Under the pieces are notes generated by a model. The model was not told the DNA's origin. It ran no database searches and saw only the letters and a program-made list of their open reading frames with translations. A program made the position numbers and the translations under genes. From a virus, in IMG/VR virus record IMGVR_UViG_3300023174_000450, positions 1-32,067 of that record: DNA of 32,067 bases; one strand, given 5' to 3'. Below, piece after piece: positions 7,242 through 26,322 of this stretch. The stretch's first letter is position 1, and every line of letters begins with the position of its first letter.

Positions 7242-7247
7242 TTGACA
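7242..7247 (+). promoter_or_regulatory. TTGACA start-proximal motif, site 2
   Basis: TTGACA directly follows the portal TAA stop and begins 22 nt before ATG 7264. AGGAAGG follows it as the ribosome site. Confidence 0.4.
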
Positions 7248-7263
7248 AACTAGGAAGGTGATT

Positions 7264-7641
7264 ATGGAAAACGCCAACGGCGAGACAATTCTCACAACGC
7301 TTCTTACCTACCAGAATCAATATAAGATATTTCATTGGCAGACAAGGAGTTATAGCCAACACAAGAGCTTTGGAGAAATCTATGAGTCTCTTACTGAGAA
7401 CATTGATGAGTTTGTGGAAACCTTTATGGGCAAGTATGGCAGAATTATCTCTGCTTCCACCTTTGACTTTAGTCTTGATAACTATTCGGAAGGCTTTGGG
7501 GAATACAATGATGAGTTTATTTCGTTCCTTTCTGATGAGCTACCGGGCTATTTGAACGAGGGTGACACGGACTTGCTAAATATCCGAGATGAGATTCTTG
7601 GAAGCGTGAACCAACTTAAATACCTCTTAACCCTAGTTTAA
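7264..7641 (+). CDS. ferritin-like/DUF5856-type small protein
   Basis: The 125-residue product matches a pattern I associate with a ferritin-like phage family (DUF5856): YQNQYKIFHWQTRSYSQHKS near the start, then IYESLTENIDEFVETFMGKY. These give His and Glu residues spaced on two helices, as in Dps-like folds. Whether it binds metal is not shown. ATG 7264 is chosen over GTG 7258 because the AGGAAGG ribosome site overlaps the GTG. It lies between portal and protease genes, which suggests a virion-linked or assembly-linked role. Confidence 0.6.
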   Translation: MENANGETILTTLLTYQNQYKIFHWQTRSYSQHKSFGEIYESLTENIDEFVETFMGKYGRIISASTFDFSLDNYSEGFGEYNDEFISFLSDELPGYLNEGDTDLLNIRDEILGSVNQLKYLLTLV

Positions 7642-9262: not shown

Positions 9263-10225
9263 ATGAGCTTTATTTCTGGTGGCACGACCATTCGTGCTGA
9301 TATTAACCAAGCCTTGATCGAAGCCCCCGCCGAGATCGGTTTGATCGGTGCGGAAGTTCTCCCTCTCTTGCCAGTATCGGCAAAGAGCGGTCAGTATCTC
9401 AAGGTGCAGACGGCTGATGCTGACCTCTTGAATGCTGATGCGGCAAAGAGGAATGCTGGTTCTGAATACGCTCGTGCGGTTCGGAAATTCACCTCTGATA
9501 CCTACGATTGCCAAGAGACCGGCCTAGAGGAGCTAATTGATGATAGTTTCAAAAGTGATGCGAACAGGTTTTTTTCGCTGGAAAGCGAAACTGCCAAGTT
9601 CTTGCTCCGCCAAGTCAAGCTCTCCCACGAAAAGCGGGTGGCTGACTTGCTCTGGGCGACAACGACCCCATTCACCACGGCTGATTTAAGCCCTACGGCT
9701 AACTACACCGAAGCTAACTTGGCAACCATCAACGCCCCTGCGGATGTTGCGGCTGGCAAATTGGCTCTTAATAAATTAGGTTATGCGGCCAATGCCGTCA
9801 TAATGAGTGCAAATGTGTATGAGCGAGTTCGCCGTACCACCCTCTTGCAAAATCAATTCTACGGAGTTGTTTCCAATACTGGTGGTCGCTTGCTTGATGA
9901 GAAGCAGATTGCCGAAGCGTTCGGTGTGGATAATGTCTACATCGGTCGTGCGGCCTACAACACAGCGAACAAGAACAAGAGCTATTCTGGCTCGTTCATT
10001 GTTCCCGACACCAAGATTGTTGTTGCTAATGTTGCTGGCGGTCAGTTCACCGCTGGTGGATTGGGACGCACCTTGGTCTGGTCGGAAGATGCCCCCGGTG
10101 GCTTCGTCTCCGAGAGCTATCGTGACGAGGCTCGTCGCTCAAATGTTCTCCGTGTTCGTATGAACACAGCAGAGAAAGTCATTGATGCGAACGCCGCCGT
10201 CCGTATCACCACGACCTACAGCTAA
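9263..10225 (+). CDS. major capsid protein (lambda gpE-like)
   Basis: The 320-residue product is placed after protease/scaffold and decoration genes and ends at a strong terminator, as expected for the capsid gene. Visible features are an N-terminal arm (residues 1-60), YDCQETGLEELIDDSFKSDA near 80-100 followed by a long helix (ESETAKFLLRQVKLSHEKRV), then VIMSANVYERVRRTTLLQNQ and DEKQIAEAFGVDNVYIGRA, typical of the spine/A-domain of this capsid group, and VWSEDAPGGFVSESYRDEAR near the end. Length fits gpE-like capsids (about 340). Codon choice is regular, consistent with high expression. Confidence 0.88.
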   Translation: MSFISGGTTIRADINQALIEAPAEIGLIGAEVLPLLPVSAKSGQYLKVQTADADLLNADAAKRNAGSEYARAVRKFTSDTYDCQETGLEELIDDSFKSDANRFFSLESETAKFLLRQVKLSHEKRVADLLWATTTPFTTADLSPTANYTEANLATINAPADVAAGKLALNKLGYAANAVIMSANVYERVRRTTLLQNQFYGVVSNTGGRLLDEKQIAEAFGVDNVYIGRAAYNTANKNKSYSGSFIVPDTKIVVANVAGGQFTAGGLGRTLVWSEDAPGGFVSESYRDEARRSNVLRVRMNTAEKVIDANAAVRITTTYS

Positions 10226-10251
10226 AGATTGGTTGGTTGTTTCCTCCGAAG

Positions 10252-10290
10252 AAGGGGGAGTGGGTGAATAACCTGCTCCCCCTTTTTCTT
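10252..10290 (+). terminator. strong intrinsic terminator after the capsid gene
   Basis: AAGGGGGAG (10252-10260) pairs perfectly with CTCCCCCTT (10276-10284). An inner GGT/ACC helix extends the stem, and the stem runs into TTTTTCTTTT. It ends or attenuates head-gene transcription and separates the glycosyltransferase cassette from the head genes. Confidence 0.85.
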
Positions 10291-10328
10291 TTAATTGACA
10301 TCCTCTAGCAGAAAGAAATCCTATCTAA

Positions 10329-11981
10329 ATGAAATATCCTATTTCAGTCTATCTCATCTCTGGAAATGAAGAAGAGTATATCGCCAGATGCCTTGAGTCG
10401 TTTAAGCCCATTTCAGCGGAGCTTGTTGTTTGCATCGCTAGGGGGAACGCTGTCCCAGATAAAACAGAGGAGATTGCGAGGGGGTTGGGTGCAAAGATTG
10501 TCCACTATACCAATAAAAATGATTGGCCTCATATTGACGATTTTGCAACGGCAAGGAACACGGCGTTAGAGGCTTGCTCAAATGAGTGGTGTTTATGGGT
10601 CGATGCAGACGATGTAATGGTCGAGGACGGAGCGAAGGTTGTCGAGGAGGCCATTGACCTTGCCATTCAAAAAGATGCTCACCTAGTGGCGTTAAAATAC
10701 AATGTGGACAACGCTGGACTCATCCCACTCCGAGAAGAAATCTCCAAGAAGGGGACTTGTAGCTGGAAGAACCGGGTTCACGAAATGCTTGTTTGCAAAG
10801 AGCCAAACAAGACGATTGGCGTAGACAAGATTTTCCGAATCCACAAGCCCCACGGATACAAGCCAAGGAGTGCGGAGAGGAACTTGAACATCTTGGCCGA
10901 TACGCTTGCCCCAGCCGCCAACTCGCTTTACTATCAAGCCCAAGAGTATTTTCTATCTGGTCAGAACGAAAAGTGCATTGATTCGAGTATGCGAGCGTTG
11001 TCTTTCCCAGACCTAGAGGACACGCTTCGCTACGATGTGCTTTGCAACTTGGGGAGAATAGTTCCAGAAAACGAGAGGCTTTCTTATCTCGGACAAGCCG
11101 TAGCCCTACAACCAGACCGCCGAGAGGCTTACTTCTATATCGCAAATCATTGGTCTGGTAAAGGCAACTGGATAAAGGCTTATGGGGCAGTTCGTTCTTG
11201 TCTGACTTTGCATCGCCCTAAAGCCCACTACTGGAATCTTGTCGAAGCGATCTATAACTGGCAAGCGATGGACTTATACGAGACGGCTTCTGTTTGCGTT
11301 GGGGAAGCTGGTGAGGCCGAAAAGATTAAGAAGATGCGACCAGCCCCCAAGATTAGCATTGTTCACGCTACAAGGGGAAGGCCACAGATTGCTTGGCAGA
11401 GGCGATGGATGTGGCTTTCCTTGGCTGAGAAGCCCCTAGAAATTGAGTGGCTCTTTATGGTAGATCATAACGACCCCATAGATTACACCCCCCACCAAGC
11501 GATTAGATGTAATCCGGGCGGGATGATTAACGCTTGGAACGCAGGGGCAAAAATAGCCAAAGGGGACATTATTATTCAAATGAGCGATGACTGGACACCC
11601 CCCCGCCATTGGGATGCCCTAATTTCGACCGCCATTGGGGATACAACGCAAGAGAAGGTGCTGGCAGTATCAGATGGCCTACGGCAAGACAAGCTCCTCT
11701 GTATGGCGATTCTGACGCAATCTAGGCTCAAGAAGCAGGGGCATCTATTCCACCCAGATTACCAAGACTCGGACGGCATCTATTCCGATAACGAGTTCAC
11801 GGATAGAGCCTACGCAGAACAAATTGTAATTGAGGCTAGACATATCCAATTCAAGCACGATAATCCTATGTTTAATGGCGGGCAACCAGACGAACAGTTA
11901 AAGAACCATAACAAGCCAGAATTTTATGAAAAGGGGAAGGCCATCTATGAAAAACGCAAAAGCCAAAACTGGCAATCGTAA
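10329..11981 (+). CDS. two-domain glycosyltransferase (GT2-TPR-GT2)
   Basis: The 550-residue product has an N-terminal GT2/GT-A fold (about 1-190) starting ISVYLISGNEEEYIARCLES and carrying a DAD motif (VDADD, 91-95) for sugar-nucleotide/metal binding. A helical TPR-like region (about 195-330; YYQAQEYFLSGQNEKCIDSS) follows. A second GT-A domain (about 341-530) has KISIVHATRGRP, NAWNAGAKIAKGD and MSDDW (418-422). It probably transfers sugars to a virion or cell-surface target; the substrate is unknown. A TTGACA lies 34 nt upstream (10295), and the capsid terminator lies between it and the head genes. It opens a six-gene cassette. Confidence 0.8.
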   Translation: MKYPISVYLISGNEEEYIARCLESFKPISAELVVCIARGNAVPDKTEEIARGLGAKIVHYTNKNDWPHIDDFATARNTALEACSNEWCLWVDADDVMVEDGAKVVEEAIDLAIQKDAHLVALKYNVDNAGLIPLREEISKKGTCSWKNRVHEMLVCKEPNKTIGVDKIFRIHKPHGYKPRSAERNLNILADTLAPAANSLYYQAQEYFLSGQNEKCIDSSMRALSFPDLEDTLRYDVLCNLGRIVPENERLSYLGQAVALQPDRREAYFYIANHWSGKGNWIKAYGAVRSCLTLHRPKAHYWNLVEAIYNWQAMDLYETASVCVGEAGEAEKIKKMRPAPKISIVHATRGRPQIAWQRRWMWLSLAEKPLEIEWLFMVDHNDPIDYTPHQAIRCNPGGMINAWNAGAKIAKGDIIIQMSDDWTPPRHWDALISTAIGDTTQEKVLAVSDGLRQDKLLCMAILTQSRLKKQGHLFHPDYQDSDGIYSDNEFTDRAYAEQIVIEARHIQFKHDNPMFNGGQPDEQLKNHNKPEFYEKGKAIYEKRKSQNWQS

Positions 11982-12171
11982 GTCTGGAATCATTCGCTTT
12001 GGAGAGGCTAGACCAGTTCCTCCGATGGTCGAGGTGGATGTGAGCTATGATGAGAAGGCAGAGAAAGATTTATACAAAGCTGGGATGCTCGCATTGAAGC
12101 ACGATAAGGAAGCTGTGATTTCTTATGTAATTCGCAAGGCTTTAGAGGAGAAATTGAAATGCAAGAGATAA
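11947..12171 (+). CDS. small hypothetical protein, RHH-like C-terminus
   Basis: The 74-residue product is basic at the start (MKNAKAKTGNRKSGIIRFGE) and ends in a helical part (YKAGMLALKHDKEAVISYVI, then RKALEEKL) that could form a ribbon-helix-helix or similar small DNA-binding fold. The start at 11947 is preceded by GGGGAAGG; an in-frame ATG at 11926 is possible. It overlaps both the end of the glycosyltransferase and the start of the next gene, so it is read as part of one operon. Confidence 0.5.
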   Translation: MKNAKAKTGNRKSGIIRFGEARPVPPMVEVDVSYDEKAEKDLYKAGMLALKHDKEAVISYVIRKALEEKLKCKR

Positions 12172-12767
12172 CTATTAACGACTCATTTGGGAAAGCCCTC
12201 GCAAAGTACAGCGAGGGATTAGATGTTGGCCTAGAGATTGGGGGAGGAACTGGGGATGGCTCAACTCAATGTATTAGGACAAAAAGGCTATTCAGCATTG
12301 AGAACCACCCAGACCGCATTGGTAGGCATTCGATGAACCTATCGGCAAGGGGTGGCGTTGCCATCAACGGCACGGCAACTCTACCGAAGCTATGGATGAA
12401 CCAGTTGGATATAGCAGAGTTTTACGGAACAAATAAAACCACCATTAACCAATATCCCCTAGATCAAGTTCTTGGCTGGTATCACGAATGTGTTGAATTT
12501 GCCCAACCTTATAGCACCAACGCAATCGAGGACATTCATATTGAGCATAAGATGAATTTTGATTTTGTGTTGATAGATGGTTGCGAGTTCTCCGGGGAAG
12601 CCGAACTTCGATGCGTAAGGCCATTCTTGGCAGAGAAAGCGATCATCGCCCTAGACGATATTAACGCTATGAAGAATTTGGCTAACTACCACAAGCTCAA
12701 GGGATTTGGGAAACTGCTTTGGGAGGATTGGTCTGTTCGTAATGGTGCGGCCATATTTCAGTTATGA
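12159..12767 (+). CDS. SAM-methyltransferase-like protein
   Basis: The 202-residue protein contains GLEIGGGTGDGSTQ at about 24-37, which fits the glycine-rich SAM loop of class I methyltransferases, FSIENHPDR (about 45-53) as the acidic strand-2 end, and FDFVLIDGCEF (about 134-144) plus AIIALDDI (161-168), like Methyltransf_24 relatives. The segment between about 70 and 130 is unusual and contains no motif I know. Likely a small-molecule or sugar methyltransferase working with the neighbouring glycosyltransferases. Target unknown. Confidence 0.55.
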   Translation: MQEITINDSFGKALAKYSEGLDVGLEIGGGTGDGSTQCIRTKRLFSIENHPDRIGRHSMNLSARGGVAINGTATLPKLWMNQLDIAEFYGTNKTTINQYPLDQVLGWYHECVEFAQPYSTNAIEDIHIEHKMNFDFVLIDGCEFSGEAELRCVRPFLAEKAIIALDDINAMKNLANYHKLKGFGKLLWEDWSVRNGAAIFQL

Positions 12768-13312
12768 AGCATATATATGAGGATGAATGCTTTGGAGAAC
12801 AATGGTTCACTTATCCTAGCGTATATCGTCTAATGGTTGATAAATGTGAGCCAAAAGGAACTATCGCAGAACTTGGGGCTTGGAAGGGAAGAAGCTCTGC
12901 ATTCCTTGTGGTTGAAGCAAAAAACAAAAGCCCAGACATCAACATTCACATTGTAGATACTTGGTTAGGCTCGGAAGAGCATACCGAGGAAATGAAGGAC
13001 AATCTATATCAAAAGTTCAAATCCAATATGGCTAGGCTGGATGGACTCTATAAAGAACACAGAATGACAACCAATGAGGCAGTTCATCTTTTTAAGGATG
13101 AATCTTTGGATGGGGTTTTTATAGATGCAGACCATAGCTATGAGGCAGTAAAGAGAGATATTGCTAACTGGAAGCCCAAGATTCGTAAGGGTGGAATCTT
13201 GGCTGGTCACGATTATATACAAACATTTAGTGGGGTTGTTCAAGCAGTAAATGAATCGTTCCCAAATATGGATTTTATGCTTGGAGAACAATGCTGGATA
13301 AAACAATGCTGA
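12764..13312 (+). CDS. class I SAM-dependent methyltransferase (Methyltransf_24-like)
   Basis: The 182-residue product shows a clear class I methyltransferase: GTIAELGAWKGRSS (32-45, SAM loop), IHIVDTW (61-67, acidic strand end), LDGVFIDADHSYEAVKRDI (115-133) and GGILAGHDY (143-151). The VFIDADHSYE box is characteristic of Methyltransf_24 enzymes, which in sugar clusters methylate glycan hydroxyls. It overlaps the previous gene by ATGA and its own end overlaps the following glycosyltransferase. The substrate is inferred from context. Confidence 0.8.
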   Translation: MKHIYEDECFGEQWFTYPSVYRLMVDKCEPKGTIAELGAWKGRSSAFLVVEAKNKSPDINIHIVDTWLGSEEHTEEMKDNLYQKFKSNMARLDGLYKEHRMTTNEAVHLFKDESLDGVFIDADHSYEAVKRDIANWKPKIRKGGILAGHDYIQTFSGVVQAVNESFPNMDFMLGEQCWIKQC

Positions 13313-14073
13313 CCATCTTCACTATTGTACTCAACGGAATGCCATACATTGAGAGGCATCTAGCAGAGCTTCAAAAGCTAAAGATTCCTTGGGAGTGGAG
13401 GATTGTCGAGGGAGTGACCGAGCCTCTAGGATGCACTCGATGGTGTAGGCAAGTTCCCGACAAGTGGCACAAGGACTTCAAGAGCATAGACGGAACACAC
13501 GAATACCTTGAGAGCATCCGAGGTGGAAATGTGGCAGTCTATTCGCAAGACAAGGCATTCAACGGAAAGCTAGAGATGATTAAGCAAGCCCTACAAGGAG
13601 TCGATTCTGGGGTTGTTATGGAGGTGGACGCTGACGAGATGTGGAGGGCAGATCAGATCGAAAAGATTTACGAATGTCTCAATGGGGCAGAGGATGGGGC
13701 AACGATGCAATTCCATTGTAACTTCTTTGTTGGGGATAATAAAAAGATAATTACTAGGGAAGGATATAGTTCTAGTTGGTATGAATGGATGAGGGCTTGG
13801 AAGTGGGGAAAGAATGTCTGCTTCACTAGCCACGAACCACCACGGCTAAATATCCAGTCAAGGCTAGTCCCAAGGGGAGTCACAGAAACTTGGGGGCTGG
13901 TATTCAATCACTATGCCTACACAACCCTTAAGCAAGTCGAGTTTAAGGAAGATTTCTATGGCTACAAGGGGCTAGTGGATGGGTGGAAAGAATTACAAAA
14001 GACAATCGGGCCAGTACGGCTAAACCAATTCTTTAATCATATTCAAGACAAGAGCGTTGCCGATGACGCATAA
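13291..14073 (+). CDS. glycosyltransferase-like protein
   Basis: The 260-residue product starts with a Rossmann-like strand (MLTIFTIVLNGMPYIERHLA) and has VVMEVDADEMW (109-118) with a DxD-type motif for nucleotide-sugar binding. The second half is rich in Trp/Tyr (SSSWYEWMRAWKWGKNVC), consistent with acceptor binding. The start at 13291 has GGAG 5 nt upstream; ATG 13306, nearer the previous stop, is an alternative. It lies between a methyltransferase and another glycosyltransferase, all overlapping. Confidence 0.65.
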   Translation: MLDKTMLTIFTIVLNGMPYIERHLAELQKLKIPWEWRIVEGVTEPLGCTRWCRQVPDKWHKDFKSIDGTHEYLESIRGGNVAVYSQDKAFNGKLEMIKQALQGVDSGVVMEVDADEMWRADQIEKIYECLNGAEDGATMQFHCNFFVGDNKKIITREGYSSSWYEWMRAWKWGKNVCFTSHEPPRLNIQSRLVPRGVTETWGLVFNHYAYTTLKQVEFKEDFYGYKGLVDGWKELQKTIGPVRLNQFFNHIQDKSVADDA

Positions 14074-14797
14074 GCCTAAACTTTTCTTGTGCGGGTTGGC
14101 TAGGAATTGTGCAAGATCGCTCCTATCGAATATCCCATCTATTTTGTCATTGAGGCAGAATTGGGATTTGTCTGGGGTAATACTAGAAAACGATAGCACA
14201 GACGATACGCCAAAGATTCTGCAAGCCATAACAAAGCTATGCCCATCTATTCAAATCTATAACCCAAGCCCAACAGAGGAAATGACTAGATACGAGAGAA
14301 TGGCCTATCTCCGAAACGAAGCTCTTATAGCCGCAGAGGCACAGCAACCAGACTGGGTGTGCGTTGCTGACCTAGACTTGTTTCAGTTTATTGGACTAGA
14401 AACCTATGCCCCAAAAAACAACGCCGAGGCAATTATGGGGCTTATGCCAAAGAAGTATGTTCCGTGGCATCCCGGTGAGCCGATTCATTATATGGATAGA
14501 GAGTGGGTATATTACGACCTATTAGCAGTAGAGTTCAAGGATGGAACAAGACCTCATTGGATTGGTGATATGGAATATCCAGACACAAAAGATGAGTTCA
14601 AGAAGGCAACCAAAAGCTCTGTTAGTGGGGCGATGTTTGCTAATTCAGCTTTTGGAGGGATGGCTTTCTATAAGGCCGACAAGATAAGGGGAATTAGATA
14701 TACTGGAACAGATTGCGAGCATATTGCATTTCATAAGCAGATTGGTGGCATATATATAACGGACAAGATAAAAGGCATATACTTTCCTCAAGATTGA
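14063..14797 (+). CDS. glycosyltransferase-like protein (CAP59/GT69-like pattern)
   Basis: The 244-residue product begins with LFLCGLARNCARSLLSNIPS and then VILENDSTDDTPKIL (about 39-53), followed by WVCVADLDLF (98-107), the DxD equivalent. The ARN...NDSTDDT pattern is like CAP59/GT69-type glycosyltransferases. Later SGAMFANSAFGGMAFYKADK resembles the acceptor-side loops of that group. ATG 14063 is chosen over an upstream in-frame TTG at 14057. Last gene of the cassette. Confidence 0.65.
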   Translation: MTHKPKLFLCGLARNCARSLLSNIPSILSLRQNWDLSGVILENDSTDDTPKILQAITKLCPSIQIYNPSPTEEMTRYERMAYLRNEALIAAEAQQPDWVCVADLDLFQFIGLETYAPKNNAEAIMGLMPKKYVPWHPGEPIHYMDREWVYYDLLAVEFKDGTRPHWIGDMEYPDTKDEFKKATKSSVSGAMFANSAFGGMAFYKADKIRGIRYTGTDCEHIAFHKQIGGIYITDKIKGIYFPQD

Positions 14798-14799
14798 CA
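14794..14799 (+). promoter_or_regulatory. TTGACA start-proximal motif, site 4
   Basis: TTGACA includes the TGA stop of the glycosyltransferase gene and begins 20 nt before ATG 14814; AGAGGTGG follows as the ribosome site. Confidence 0.4.
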
Positions 14800-14813: not shown

Positions 14814-15131
14814 ATGGCTGGCAGTATCCCCACCTCCTACTTCGCAACTGACCTCTCTTATATGATTGAGGACTTATATCAATCTGTGACTGGCTTGGGT
14901 TCTTCGACTGTTTCTGCTTCCGTAACAGACCTAACAACAGCAAGCGAGTTAGAGATAGGCGGTGAGGTGTTTAGGGTGACGCAAAGCCTAGTTGTTTTGG
15001 CTTCTGGAATCTCTGCCCCAGTTATCGGCTCTCTTTGCACAGTTAGCGGGGTGGAGCGTATGATAGGAGGATTTTCGCAAAGCACAGATGGCCTTTCCTT
15101 TACCATCGAACTTGCGGAGATTACGACCTAA
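14814..15131 (+). CDS. putative head-tail connector protein
   Basis: The 105-residue product resumes the structural genes after the cassette. It has a short helical start (YFATDLSYMIEDLYQSVTG) and then beta-type Ser/Thr/Val-rich sequence with an EIGGEVFRVTQSLVVLASG segment. Small proteins in this place in lambda-like phages are head-completion factors (FII-like). I recognise no precise family. Its stop overlaps the next ATG (TAATG). Confidence 0.5.
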   Translation: MAGSIPTSYFATDLSYMIEDLYQSVTGLGSSTVSASVTDLTTASELEIGGEVFRVTQSLVVLASGISAPVIGSLCTVSGVERMIGGFSQSTDGLSFTIELAEITT

Positions 15132-15547
15132 TGGCTTCGATAGAGAGGGAGGTGGAGAACGCCCTCCTTAATGTGGTTTCTGGTGTTACCGGGGTGAACT
15201 TCTTTACAAGCGAGAGAGGCACAGCTAGGACGATGCCGAGCGTAACAGTTCAAGCCCAGATTGGGTCAGAGGAGCTTGTGCCTTTTTCTGGTGTATTCAA
15301 AACCCCAGCTTCGATAACCTATGTGGCAAGAGCCGATACGACTGCAAGAGCAGACTTTGATGCCAAGTTTTACGACATCCTAGAACAACTCTATCGCGAC
15401 CCAGACCTAGCGAGCTACCTTACGGCCAATTCCAACATAACATTCTATGTGGCAAAGGTGACTGGTGATAGTCCCGCCGTCATAAGTCAAAACCGCACTT
15501 GGTCAAGGGCTATGACTTTAGACATCACGGCAACTGCAAAGAAATGA
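15131..15547 (+). CDS. tail-completion-like protein, copy 1 of a tandem pair
   Basis: The 138-residue protein aligns along its length with the next gene: both have a VENALLNV/VEDALDNI start, a MPSVTVQAQIG/FPFATISASVG strand, an ADFDAKFYDILEQLY/ADFDAEYCSIFEAFY helix and a closing TWSRAMTLDITAT/AWQRGLKMSLICT strand. The fold pattern and position fit tail terminator or completion proteins (gpU/gpZ-like). The Asp residues of ADFDA are shared. Overlaps both neighbours. Confidence 0.55.
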   Translation: MASIEREVENALLNVVSGVTGVNFFTSERGTARTMPSVTVQAQIGSEELVPFSGVFKTPASITYVARADTTARADFDAKFYDILEQLYRDPDLASYLTANSNITFYVAKVTGDSPAVISQNRTWSRAMTLDITATAKK

Positions 15548-16035
15548 ACAACAGCGTTCAAATCAATGTGGAGGATGCGTTAGACAACATTCTGGCTAAT
15601 GTATCTGGCCTCAATGTCTATAAGACCAATCGGGTAGGGGCAAAGCTATTCCCCTTCGCTACAATCTCTGCATCTGTGGGGGGTCAGCTTCTTGGAAATT
15701 ATACTGGGGTCTATGAAGTGGCCGTTACAATCGACTACTCCGACACAGCAGCTAAGATTAGCCAAGCCGACTTTGACGCTGAATACTGCTCAATCTTTGA
15801 GGCGTTCTACTCTGAAACTCCACCTCTCTTTACCAAGATTCAAAGTAATATAGTCGATACAAAGGTTTATACGGCACGAATTATCGGACAAACCCCGACG
15901 ATTAGGACAGCGAAAAGGGCTTGGCAGAGGGGCTTGAAGATGAGCCTAATTTGCACCCCATCAGAACTAGACGATGGCTTGCGATCTTTGAACTTCTCAC
16001 AGAGACAAAACTCAATGTATGTGGCAGTCATTTAA
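15544..16035 (+). CDS. tail-completion-like protein, copy 2 of a tandem pair
   Basis: The 163-residue paralogue of the preceding gene; about 138 residues align, and the last 25 (SELDDGLRSLNFSQRQNSMY and on) are an added tail. Start at ATG 15544 overlaps the stop of copy 1. Divergence is substantial, so the duplication is old. Two related ring-forming proteins could act as separate completion factors for the connector and the tail tube; this is inference. Confidence 0.55.
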   Translation: MNNSVQINVEDALDNILANVSGLNVYKTNRVGAKLFPFATISASVGGQLLGNYTGVYEVAVTIDYSDTAAKISQADFDAEYCSIFEAFYSETPPLFTKIQSNIVDTKVYTARIIGQTPTIRTAKRAWQRGLKMSLICTPSELDDGLRSLNFSQRQNSMYVAVI

Positions 16036-16051: not shown

Positions 16052-17326
16052 ATGGCACTTTCTATTTTAGACGGCAACCAATCAGCAACTACGCTTTCAA
16101 CCATCCTTTCTAGTGGGCAACATATCACCGCCCACACGGTTGTTAGCCTTGGCACACAAGCGATTACAGATATAGTCAATGCGACTTCGGCTAATCTAAC
16201 CAACACCCAACTCCGAGCAAGTGCTGTAACCATTGGCGGGACGGTGACTATTGGAAACAGCGTCACCATCAGCTCCCTTCCCGCCATCTCTGGGACGGTG
16301 ACGGCAAATGTATTTGGTCAAAGTGTAAATGGTCTTACTATTTTTCCGATACCCATAATTAATTATGACGAGGACATAAGCTCGGCAGACTTTCAAATTA
16401 CAGTCCCAGTTCAAATAAATAATATCAATGGAGCAATCGGGGGTGTAAATCCTCTCCCCATCTCTGGCACAGTCACCATCGGCTCTGCTCTCCCCGCCGG
16501 CACAAACCGCATTGGCGTGGTGACGATTGGAGCAGGCACAGTCACCATCGGAGCAGGAACGGCACAGATTGGAAGCGTCACAGTTGGCAATTCGGTGACC
16601 ATCGGCTCGCTCCCCGCGATTAGCGGGACGGTGACGGCAGTATTATCAGGCACATCCTATGTGGAAATAGCGGGTGGGATACAAAATTATGTATTTGATT
16701 ACACTTCTTTCCCCATCTCTGGCACAGTAACAGCCAACCCAACTGGCACACAGACGATTGCGGGTTCAGTCACCATCGGAGCAGGAACGGCACAGATTGG
16801 AAGCGTCACGGCGAGCATATCTAACTTCCCAGCCACGCAGGCTGTTTCACTAACTACGCTACCAGCGTTAGTCGCAGGCACGGCACAGATTGGCTCTGTC
16901 ACCGCATCAATCAGCGGGACGGTTCCCATCAGCATCTCCTCCGTTACGGTAGGTAACAGCGTCACTATTGGCTCGCTTCCTGCTTTGGCGGCTGGCACGA
17001 ATCAGATCGGCTCTGTCACAGCATCTATCTCAAATACAGCTATAACAATTTATTCAGCTCAAGGAACGACTGTAACTAATAGCAATTTTACCAGCACAGC
17101 CTCTACCACGCTTGTCTCAGCAGTAGCAGGCAGAGATGTGCTGACAGTATTTAATGAGGGAGCGGGCAATCTTTTCATCTCTCCGGGTGCAACTGCAACC
17201 ACCATCAGTTACCAAGTGCGTCTATCAGCGGGTGATTATTGGGAATGCCCAGAGGGACAGCGTTCGCTTATTCATACAGCAGTATTCGCTACGGCTGGCA
17301 CGGCTAGGGTGACGGAAGTTAGCTAG
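16052..17326 (+). CDS. repeat-built fibrous structural protein
   Basis: The 424-residue product is dominated by short imperfect repeats of SGTVTIG, NSVTIGSLPAISGTVTA, AGTAQIGSVTAS and similar between about residues 60 and 330, giving beta-strand runs with Gly turns as in beta-solenoid or fibre proteins. Aromatic and charged residues are scarce until a globular C-terminus (about 340-424: DVLTVFNEGAGNLFISPGAT, then RLSAGDYWECPEGQ) that resembles a small beta-sandwich seen in phage virion proteins. TTAACA lies 20 nt before ATG 16052. Location among connector and tail genes suggests a head or tail decoration fibre. Receptor or sugar binding is unproven. Confidence 0.6.
   Translation: MALSILDGNQSATTLSTILSSGQHITAHTVVSLGTQAITDIVNATSANLTNTQLRASAVTIGGTVTIGNSVTISSLPAISGTVTANVFGQSVNGLTIFPIPIINYDEDISSADFQITVPVQINNINGAIGGVNPLPISGTVTIGSALPAGTNRIGVVTIGAGTVTIGAGTAQIGSVTVGNSVTIGSLPAISGTVTAVLSGTSYVEIAGGIQNYVFDYTSFPISGTVTANPTGTQTIAGSVTIGAGTAQIGSVTASISNFPATQAVSLTTLPALVAGTAQIGSVTASISGTVPISISSVTVGNSVTIGSLPALAAGTNQIGSVTASISNTAITIYSAQGTTVTNSNFTSTASTTLVSAVAGRDVLTVFNEGAGNLFISPGATATTISYQVRLSAGDYWECPEGQRSLIHTAVFATAGTARVTEVS
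16539..16809 (+). repeat. exact 43-bp direct repeat in the fibre gene
   Basis: Positions 16539-16581 and 16767-16809 are identical over 43 bp and in the same frame, encoding a VTIGAGTAQIGSVT unit twice. Other shorter repeats (GGGACGGTGACGGCA-like) occur around 16293, 16625 and 16916. Such identity suggests recent duplication or recombination within the gene. Confidence 0.85.
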
Positions 17327-18628: not shown

Positions 18629-18634
18629 TTGACA
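18629..18634 (+). promoter_or_regulatory. TTGACA start-proximal motif, site 5
   Basis: TTGACA follows the TAA stop of the XhlA-like gene and begins 21 nt before ATG 18650; AAGGAG follows. Confidence 0.4.
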
Positions 18635-18649
18635 CAAGCAAAGGAGATT

Positions 18650-18685
18650 ATGCAAAACACACTTTCTAACGAGGTTTCAATCTAA
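18650..18685 (+). CDS. 11-residue ORF coupled to the tail tube gene
   Basis: ATG 18650 has one of the best ribosome sites of the window (AAGGAG, 6 nt upstream) and opens MQNTLSNEVSI, whose TAA stop overlaps the ATG of the next gene (TAATG at 18683-18687). The next gene has no good ribosome site of its own, so ribosomes probably load at the mini-ORF and reinitiate. It may be a translational leader rather than a functional peptide. Confidence 0.5.
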   Translation: MQNTLSNEVSI

Positions 18686-19041
18686 TGGCCGCCGTCACAA
18701 TCGGAACTTCTAATTTGACCTTCGCAACGGTTTCCGAAGGTAGCATTGGATTGGTTCAGAGCTTTTCAGAGGCTCGCAATATCGAGAAAAACGAAGTCCG
18801 AAATAACGCTGGCGATATTGTTGCCGTTGGATATTATAACGCCACAACCTCCTATTCACTCTCGGTTGCCCTTATTGGTGCTTACGCCGTAACCGCAGGA
18901 GCGGCTCTTGCGGCCTTGAACAATGCAACTACGGCCATTGGAACTGGCTCTCTTCGCATCGATTCCATCACGATTAACAAGTCTAACGATGCGTTTGTGA
19001 CCCTCGACATCTCGGCTACTGGCTATCCGAACGTAAGTTAA
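18685..19041 (+). CDS. putative major tail (tube) protein
   Basis: The 118-residue product is beta-rich and Ala/Thr-rich (MAAVTIGTSNLTFATVSEGS; YYNATTSYSLSVALIGAYAV; GSLRIDSITINKSNDAFVTL), consistent with small tail tube proteins. It lies two genes before the chaperone frameshift site and before the tape measure, the standard tube position. Coupled to the 11-codon ORF upstream. At 118 residues it is shorter than most tube proteins (about 140-250), so the call is made on context. Confidence 0.55.
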   Translation: MAAVTIGTSNLTFATVSEGSIGLVQSFSEARNIEKNEVRNNAGDIVAVGYYNATTSYSLSVALIGAYAVTAGAALAALNNATTAIGTGSLRIDSITINKSNDAFVTLDISATGYPNVS

Positions 19042-23078: not shown

Positions 23079-23084
23079 TTGACA
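23079..23084 (+). promoter_or_regulatory. TTGACA start-proximal motif, site 6
   Basis: TTGACA follows a TAA (23076-23078) and begins 21 nt before ATG 23100. Confidence 0.4.
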
Positions 23085-25949: not shown

Positions 25950-26111
25950 ATGTGGGAGGCCATTCTCGCCTCGCTTGCTGGTGTGATAGGAATTATTGCT
26001 TGGTGGACAAAGAACAGAGCCAAGACTCGCAAGGAAAGAGACGATGAAGAAATTGCCTACAAACGCCGTCTCCGTGATACGGAAGTCGATTCTTGGATTC
26101 ATCGTCGCTAG
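25950..26111 (+). CDS. inner-membrane spanin-like protein, very short
   Basis: The 53-residue product has an N-terminal membrane helix (WEAILASLAGVIGIIAWW, residues 2-19) followed by a highly charged stretch (NRAKTRKERDDEEIAYKRRL) ending DSWIHRR. That is the i-spanin plan. It overlaps, in another frame, the lipoprotein gene 26044..26322, as Rz/Rz1 genes do. It is much shorter than lambda Rz (153 residues), so it could instead be a second holin-type protein. Confidence 0.5.
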   Translation: MWEAILASLAGVIGIIAWWTKNRAKTRKERDDEEIAYKRRLRDTEVDSWIHRR

Positions 26112-26322
26112 TTTGATTTGTGGGTGTGCGACCACCCGCCCTTACGACATTGGCGAAGTCCCGAACCAAGATTCGATTACCGATTACATTATGCGGTGGG
26201 ACAAGCTCGACCGAACAAAAGCAACACCAGAAGAATACAGACAGCTTTTTGGGCAATCGCTCAAAACGATTTCTCGACTTGTGGAGGAAAATGAAAAACT
26301 CCGAAAAAGGCTTGACCAGTAA
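26044..26322 (+). CDS. o-spanin-like lipoprotein
   Basis: The 92-residue product has a signal segment (VIRKSILGFIVASLICGC) with a lipobox ICGC, then a soluble helical part with a C-terminal coiled coil (LFGQSLKTISRLVEENEKLR). It would be an outer-membrane lipoprotein that partners the short inner-membrane protein 25950..26111 for outer-membrane disruption. ATG 26044 follows AAGGAAAGAG; the longer upstream reading is less likely. Its stop overlaps the lysin start (TAATG). Confidence 0.65.
   Translation: MKKLPTNAVSVIRKSILGFIVASLICGCATTRPYDIGEVPNQDSITDYIMRWDKLDRTKATPEEYRQLFGQSLKTISRLVEENEKLRKRLDQ

Follow-up and report, generated by a model that had tools for sequence, protein, structure and literature searches.

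The 32,067-nucleotide stretch of viral DNA that we analyzed (positions 1 to 32,067 of IMG/VR record IMGVR_UViG_3300023174_000450; hereafter the window) carries a conserved locus in which a glycosyltransferase (GT)-like protein, GTA, anchors a set of exchangeable enzyme slots downstream of the capsid gene and the terminator that follows it. This arrangement is a widespread, conserved locus and not an oddity. We consider it probable, with a real margin for error, that it is a late, modular virion-glycosylation cassette that equips one of the particle's proteins with a methylated glycan, for which we infer both the acceptor and the enzyme activities.

Organization of the locus

Six co-directional, mostly overlapping genes fill the interval from the major capsid gene and terminator to the first connector gene, in the order GTA, a small protein, two methyltransferases (MT1, MT2), and two further GT2-type proteins (GTB, GTC). 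All features given here with both a start and an end lie on the plus strand. The left border is formed by the major capsid gene (9263..10225; phrog_1005 'major head protein', E=8.5e-33) and, 3' of it, a rho-independent terminator-like hairpin (10248..10288; 18 pairs, 9 of them G-C, then a T-rich stretch) that recurs in all 79 distinct flanks of the family. An initial annotation had described a GT/methyltransferase cassette between capsid and connector genes behind a terminator, and the ORFs, their families, and the hairpin bear this out; its start at 10252, however, falls inside the hairpin, and the cassette proper spans 10329-14797. Immediately 3' of the terminator is a conserved TTGACA element (10295..10300), found in 87 of 93 distinct flanks versus approximately 4 expected. 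We rejected this element as a promoter because it has no -10 box and lies ~10-35 nt ahead of start codons. On the right, con1 (14814..15131) begins 16 nt past the end of GTC; it was named connector/head-closure-like from its position and size and had no family match in Pfam or PHROGs. Successive cassette ORFs overlap by 56, 13, 4, 22, and 17 (or 11) nt, which fits the single transcription unit proposed earlier, although overlaps alone fall short of proof.

The anchor enzyme GTA

GTA (10329..11981; 550 aa) comprises a GT2 domain (residues 1 to ~175), TPR-like helices (~180-336), and a second GT2-like domain (~341-530), with acidic motifs VDADD (91-95) in the first domain and MSDD (418-421) in the second. 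PF00535 matched in two stretches (E=5.7e-15), and PHROGs matches fell on residues 5-321 (phrog_13126) and 341-528 (phrog_14945). The GTA profile matched GmaR, the flagellin GlcNAc transferase (E=1.3e-12), SunS (E=8e-10), and, over residues ~200-310, TPR proteins. Structure prediction, which had been suggested for this two-domain enzyme, yielded an AF2 model with helices at 180-336 and low confidence in its second half. Its best structural matches were ThuS and SunS (VIA Z 16-17, ~262 residues), with the ThuS alignment covering model residues 1..282. Structural neighbors of this SunS-like fold include TarS and TarP, which glycosylate cell-wall teichoic acid and so count against a virion target. 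The W-x-D-x-DD of GTA was invariant down to a relative of 34% identity, as were the catalytic-type motifs among relatives.

A GT2 catalytic domain with an acidic metal/nucleotide-sugar motif at the N-terminus and a helical TPR part directly after it are features of the SunS/ThuS/GmaR type. Like GTA, the SunS/ThuS S-glycosyltransferases and GmaR have an N-terminal GT2 domain with a DXD-like motif followed by a TPR/helical domain, and their established acceptors are peptides or proteins. Unlike them, GTA has an extra C-terminal GT2-like domain and sits in the structural operon of virulent-looking phages. From its sequence and its model, GTA is a putative protein-directed glycosyltransferase and the conserved anchor of the cassette.

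Companion genes and exchangeable slots

The small basic protein (11926..12171; 81 aa) had no Pfam match, no relevant PDB match, and a weak match (E=0.069) to a PHROGs family of unknown function; a plausible beta-alpha-alpha pattern is the sole basis for its earlier designation as ribbon-helix-helix (RHH)-like. Its ORF is missing from 5 of 79 loci, leaving a gap of 7-9 nt. MT1 (12159..12767; 202 aa) is a SAM-dependent methyltransferase-like protein (Methyltransf_24, E=0.005) with an invariant motif I, EIGGGTGDGS. MT2 (12764..13312; 182 aa), a Methyltransf_24 methyltransferase (E=8.5e-19), occupies exchangeable slot B, and its profile was made by domain to keep GTA-methyltransferase fusions out. 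GTB (13291..14073; 260 aa) is GT2-like (PF00535, E=1.3e-4; VDADE motif) and conserved across the family, with a further in-frame ATG at 13306 that is the start in many relatives. GTC (14057..14797), GT-A-like (PF13704, E=5.9e-4; ADLDL), occupies exchangeable slot C and starts with TTG, with an in-frame ATG at 14063. The earlier count of three GT-like proteins, one a GT2-TPR-GT2 fusion, and two methyltransferase-like proteins thus agrees with the family, profile, and AF2 evidence, the matches of MT1, GTB, and GTC all being below the curated cut-off. Profile searches of PDB sequences with MT1, GTB, GTC, and a GT9-fold protein from related loci gave nothing or weak matches. None of the six cassette proteins has a hydrophobic segment of transmembrane strength. 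The dN/dS ratios were low for GTA (0.07), GTB (0.06), MT1 (0.09), and the capsid gene (0.12).

Around the conserved GTA, slots are swapped among Methyltransf_24, FkbM, GT7, GT2, or GT9-fold genes, or are empty. Slot B elsewhere holds FkbM, another methyltransferase-like gene (170 aa), GT7, GT2, or nothing, and slot C in most relatives holds a GT9-fold gene; replacements in the two slots are GT-like or methyltransferase-like. Exchange of the small ORF, of MT1, and of the slot genes is independent of GTA, and some slots hold a remnant, for example 63 aa of FkbM in locus L025. The GT9-fold alternative, absent from the window, is predicted to bear the GT9 GT-B fold (AF2 pLDDT 92.6). Foldseek placed TibC, a protein heptosyltransferase, and a GT9 entry on top. 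Matches to the LPS heptosyltransferases WaaF/WaaC (VIA Z 14-15) count against a virion target.

Conservation among related phages

GTA has relatives in some 586 viral contig stretches. A search for the same cassette at the same site, as the initial annotation had recommended, recovered GTA-MT1-GTB in identical order on 79 distinct contigs; of the 135 distinct loci that we retrieved with GTA and that had enough upstream DNA, 133 have a capsid gene just before GTA, with a median gap of ~107 bp. The set had been called unusual in this position, a view that this conservation in many phages overturns, and the many syntenic contigs likewise led us to reject a chimeric assembly or host contamination. 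The upstream capsid genes belong to two families. Conversely, GTA was found in all 40 capsid-fetched loci with enough downstream DNA. Distant relatives have GTA fused to a Methyltransf_24 domain (GT-TPR-GT-methyltransferase), and others have a sugar nucleotidyltransferase and a HAD hydrolase added at the GTA site. We found no description of this cassette in the open-access papers searched.

Among 84,980 genomes, matches came from two phage-like contigs, one binned with a Betaproteobacteria MAG and the other with a Chthoniobacteraceae MAG. With only these two loci recovered, nothing points to a lysogenic lifestyle. We found neither a tRNA nor a prophage with this capsid gene. A lipoprotein-like ORF at 25996 offers a hint that the host is Gram-negative.

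Co-variation with structural genes

The allele class of GTA tracks the genes for the tail tube and neck (r about 0.8) and not the capsid gene (r about 0.27), even though the latter adjoins GTA, and co-varies also with the slot C genes. This linkage holds at the level of classes and reflects few independent events; the correlation for the tube gene was -0.17 when only the largest GTA class was considered. The first set for these Mantel tests was picked via capsid and GTB scans, and the tests were rerun with GTA-fetched loci added. The putative tail-tube protein (18685..19041) lies outside the cassette, was assigned by position and sequence character, and had no family match; it is a strongly co-varying candidate for the structural acceptor. 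In their variation the glycosyltransferases follow the tail and neck genes and not the capsid gene, which makes modification of the capsid just one of two possibilities; the tail tube or neck appears at least as likely as the capsid to be the acceptor.

Proposed function and alternative explanations

Glycan building and methylation had been proposed to modify the virion or the host surface. The pairing of these two activities in a late structural operon is supported, and our evidence favors the virion because GTA is kin to protein and peptide glycosyltransferases, the cassette encodes no membrane-spanning protein, and GTA lies beside the capsid gene across two capsid families; the emphasis on the capsid is reduced by the co-variation. 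The most likely acceptor is a tail-tube/neck protein and/or the capsid protein. In our model, the N-terminal GT2 and TPR part of GTA would dock on a phage structural protein and start the glycan in the cytoplasm by linking a first sugar to a side chain of that protein. The second GT domain of GTA, GTB, and GTC (or its GT9-fold replacement) would extend the glycan, and MT1 and MT2 (or FkbM and other alternatives) would O-methylate it. Slot exchange would then alter the type of glycan shown on the particle.

We judge it unlikely that the cassette acts late in infection to remodel an envelope glycan such as LPS or capsule, for instance to prevent superinfection or re-adsorption to debris. Phage seroconversion enzymes are a well-known precedent for such remodeling, structural neighbors include teichoic-acid GTs for GTA and LPS heptosyltransferases for the GT9-fold gene of slot C, and the slot diversity is like that of bacterial surface-glycan loci. 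However, the cassette lacks a flippase, a lipid-carrier GT, and a membrane segment, its position is fixed 3' of the capsid gene in two capsid families, the enzymes nearest to GTA in profile and fold have peptide or protein substrates, and the genome search, with two loci of which one is a known viral contig, points to no lysogenic lifestyle. It is less probable still that these are accessory genes which simply accumulated at the terminator junction, forming no unified pathway and leaving the virion unaffected. The independent shuffling and the slot remnants speak for this, but GTA was present in all 40 testable capsid-fetched loci and lies nearly always at this site, every enzyme tested is under purifying selection, GTA-methyltransferase fusions exist, and the slot replacements keep to the same enzyme types.

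DNA modification, in which hypermodified bases would be the target of the GTs and DNA that of the methyltransferases, is the most remote of these alternatives. PHROGs labels the MT2 family 'DNA methyltransferase', a distant relative of 56.8 kb encodes a Tet_JBP dioxygenase, and phage GTs that act on DNA exist (Pyle, 2024, as cited in PMC12619734). We nevertheless rejected this reading, as companion genes and DNA-methylase motifs are absent: no Tet_JBP or thymidylate-synthase homolog was found in 14 records (the window and 13 relatives of 35-39 kb, which may be fragments), neither MT1 nor MT2 has a (D/N/S)PPY motif, and the cassette sits in the structural module, away from replication genes.

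Returning to virion glycosylation, we tentatively propose a broader reading, which may well prove wrong: a locus that is widespread in phages, though so far undescribed, would generate virion 'glycotypes' combinatorially. In it, a conserved GT2-TPR-GT2 protein glycosyltransferase, fixed behind capsid genes of two families, would start a glycan on proteins of the tail tube/neck and/or the capsid, and exchangeable GT/methyltransferase slots, together with exchangeable lectin-like proteins in an adjoining slot, would vary the sugar surface as in bacterial serotype loci. If so, hundreds of uncultured phages would have a dedicated, position-conserved, modular glycan-writing locus and particles with exchangeable sugar coats, bearing on adsorption, particle protection, and host range. 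A defined enzyme (GTA) and a few candidate acceptors (capsid, tail tube, con1) would be available for direct tests, and GTs adjoining capsid genes need not be taken as host-surface or DNA enzymes.

Comparison with known systems

The gtrABC-type seroconversion clusters of temperate phages likewise use phage GTs to alter glycans, and their hallmarks are the membrane flippase GtrA and the bactoprenol glucosyltransferase GtrB. Our cassette differs in having no GtrA-like flippase or membrane GT, no such Pfam match, and a place in the structural operon. With no membrane proteins among the six, we rejected a seroconversion cluster.

To our knowledge, virion glycosylation in tailed phages is known from a few mycobacteriophage cases; work by Freeman in 2023 reportedly implicated Che8 gp110 and Corndog gp38. 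In mycobacteriophages, phage-encoded GTs modify capsid and tail-tube proteins (PMC12363180, PMC12619734), and we infer an equivalent role for our cassette, which, unlike theirs, is multi-gene, includes methyltransferases, and adjoins the capsid gene. Named tblastn matches at E<=1e-5, with GTA or its relatives as queries, included no mycobacteriophage.

The metagenomic podovirus ctKR88 (MW202524, Manatee Spring) has a longer cassette, annotated in the order MCP, hypothetical, beta4glucosyltransferase, gtA, yqgM-like, hypothetical, methyltransferase, has synthase, methyltransferase; we found no discussion of it in the open-access papers searched. Its GT matches the N-terminal half of GTA, at only 27-29% identity over about half of the protein. 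The chlorovirus PBCV-1 is an unrelated eukaryotic virus, and the likeness is one of logic that does not imply homology. Its A064R (PMC7019647), a GT-GT-methyltransferase, serves to build the O-methylated glycan of the major capsid protein, and the GT-TPR-GT-methyltransferase fusions among distant GTA relatives follow the same virus-encoded design.

Organization of the cassette locus

The window (32,067 bp) covers one IMG/VR virus record from end to end. Its structural module runs from terminase, portal, a DUF5856 gene, a scaffold/protease-like gene and cement to the major capsid protein (phrog_1005; 9263-10225), an 18-pair terminator hairpin 3' of the capsid gene (10248-10288), the cassette and the connector-like gene con1 (14814-15131), followed by more neck and tail genes. 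The cassette reads GTA (a GT2-TPR-GT2 protein, 10329-11981), a small ORF (81 aa, 11926-12171), two methyltransferase-like genes (MT1, 12159-12767; MT2, 12764-13312) and two GT2-type/GT-A-like genes (GTB, 13291-14073; GTC, 14057-14797), with overlaps of 4-56 nt between neighbouring genes. All elements described in the initial annotation were found, but its RHH assignment for the 81-aa protein was without support.

A TTGACA element, often appearing as AATTGACA, lies at gene junctions (7242-7247, 10295-10300, 14794-14799, 18629-18634, 23079-23084), and 11 of the 12 copies in the window are on the + strand. The copy behind the capsid terminator is kept in 87/93 loci and the one before con1, which takes in the stop codon of the upstream gene, in 71/73. 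No -10 box was found for this element.

The DUF5856 protein (7258-7641; PF19174, E=4e-17; also phrog_858 starvation-inducible regulator) is encoded between the portal and scaffold genes, a position kept in many family members. Two adjoining connector/tail-completion-like genes (15131-15547 and 15499-16035) resemble diverged paralogues, and con2 and con3 match each other at 27-34% in relatives. Directly 3' of the connector genes, a Ser/Thr-rich repeat protein (16052-17326; repeats GTVTIGNSVTI..., IGSVTASIS) has a conserved N-terminus (MAL.ILDGNQS..TLSTI, also in the relative L158) and is otherwise highly variable; it is a possible fibre. A lipoprotein-like ORF (SLICGCATT; 25996-26322) just 5' of the endolysin gene (26322) may encode an outer spanin, and that would hint at a Gram-negative host.

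Conservation and exchangeable slots

The cassette had been considered unusual in this position; it is not rare, as a scan with the GTA alignment found 586 stretches encoding GTA relatives. The proposed search for the same cassette at the same site bore this placement out: of the 135 distinct GTA-fetched loci with sufficient upstream DNA, 133 had a capsid gene just upstream of GTA (median gap about 107 bp), and GTA was present in all 40 of the loci fetched through the capsid protein that extended 4.5 kb or more downstream. Viral contigs scanned with the capsid protein and GTB gave 79 distinct contigs sharing the order GTA-MT1-GTB, which rules out a chimera. A wider scan, led by two distant relatives from MAG bins, reached phages with different portals and a second capsid family (phrog_283). 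Many distant loci encode GTA as a fusion with a Methyltransf_24 domain, ahead of a GT2 and a con1-sized gene. At the same site, L158 encodes GTA, a small GT-like ORF, a HAD hydrolase, a sugar nucleotidyltransferase and a GTC homologue, then con1. L158 (RFYV01000066.1) and L159 (JAQTMF010000254.1) are phage contigs binned in bacterial MAGs (Betaproteobacteria, Chthoniobacteraceae); the L158 phage is also represented by a 56.8-kb viral contig, part of which is near-identical to L158 and which carries a Tet_JBP gene near 54.5 kb.

Around a core of GTA, MT1 and GTB, three intervals vary. The MT1-GTB interval holds nothing, MT2, an FkbM methyltransferase, FkbM plus MT2, a 170-aa methyltransferase-like gene, a GT7 galactosyltransferase or a GT2. 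A 63-aa FkbM remnant with joined N- and C-terminal ends (L025:4924-5115) is an internal deletion caught en route to an empty slot. Between GTB and con1, GTC is found in 8 loci versus a ~223-aa protein in 60; the AF2 model of the latter has a GT9 fold (pLDDT 92.6), for which Foldseek ranks TibC and a GT9 entry at the top and VIA gives WaaF/WaaC as matches. The terminator-GTA interval, empty in the window, holds one or more small proteins in many loci (e.g., L066:9370-10170, L005:2083-2853, L034:5825-8177). These share N-terminal anchors (MARYGYG..SVSGSRT or M.IKGGI.IGG) ahead of variable LamG, leucine-rich-repeat-like, glycine-rich or other domains, and are candidate particle-displayed adhesins; a conserved 96-aa protein and, in one case, a sulfotransferase also occur there.

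Linkage of GTA to tail genes

Pairwise-distance correlations were computed over 114 distinct family loci, picked by similarity to window proteins. Cement and capsid correlated at 0.86, while capsid and GTA reached only 0.27 despite their adjacency. GTA correlated with con1 (0.81), the putative tail-tube gene (tube, 18685-19041; 0.80) and the GT9 alternative (0.87), and at 0.26 and 0.30 with the overlapping small ORF and MT1; zero lies outside the bootstrapped differences between correlations. The two main GTA classes track tube classes (22/23 and 16/16 loci) but occur with both capsid classes. Together these sequence comparisons indicate that one module ends and another begins at the terminator, which puts the GTs with the tail genes. 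In the largest GTA class the GTA-tube correlation is absent (-0.17), so the linkage signal comes from few independent events.

Proposed function and comparison with known systems

Locus structure, conservation, purifying selection and slot exchange are established, with median dN/dS of 0.06-0.14 across tested cassette genes and GTA and GTB below the capsid gene. Enzyme folds are established for the first half of GTA and the GT9 alternative. GTA has profile matches to GmaR, SunS and TPR proteins; GmaR is a flagellin GlcNAc transferase whose TPR has been proposed to recognise flagellin (PMC9638930). The AF2 model of GTA has a mean pLDDT of 67.5, with good confidence in its GT2 and TPR parts, and aligns best with ThuS/SunS at VIA Z 16-17 across roughly 262 residues. 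In its second half GTA resembles GT2 enzymes and carries an MSDDW motif that does not vary. No membrane segments were found in any cassette protein. Virion glycosylation with methylation, of putative acceptor and chemistry, best fits this real, well-conserved, modular locus: GTA would prime a glycan on a structural protein, its second domain, GTB and GTC would lengthen it, and MT1 and MT2 would methylate it.

Linkage makes the tail tube or neck a candidate acceptor; position and mycobacteriophage precedent, where glycans are located at capsid and tail-tube C-termini (PMC12619734), suggest the capsid as another. In this family Ser/Thr occurs at the C-terminal end of tube in 49/50 and con1 in 82/85, and capsids have C-terminal tails rich in Ser/Thr/Tyr; as glycan sites, these residues are a lead only.

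Virion glycosylation encoded by phages is already known. The literature searched contained no description of a multi-enzyme cassette of this design fixed in position. The complete two-GT protein was not found in the phage collection, GTA being covered only in part among the matches listed. The metagenomic phage ctKR88 in GenBank has an annotated layout that is the same as the cassette's.
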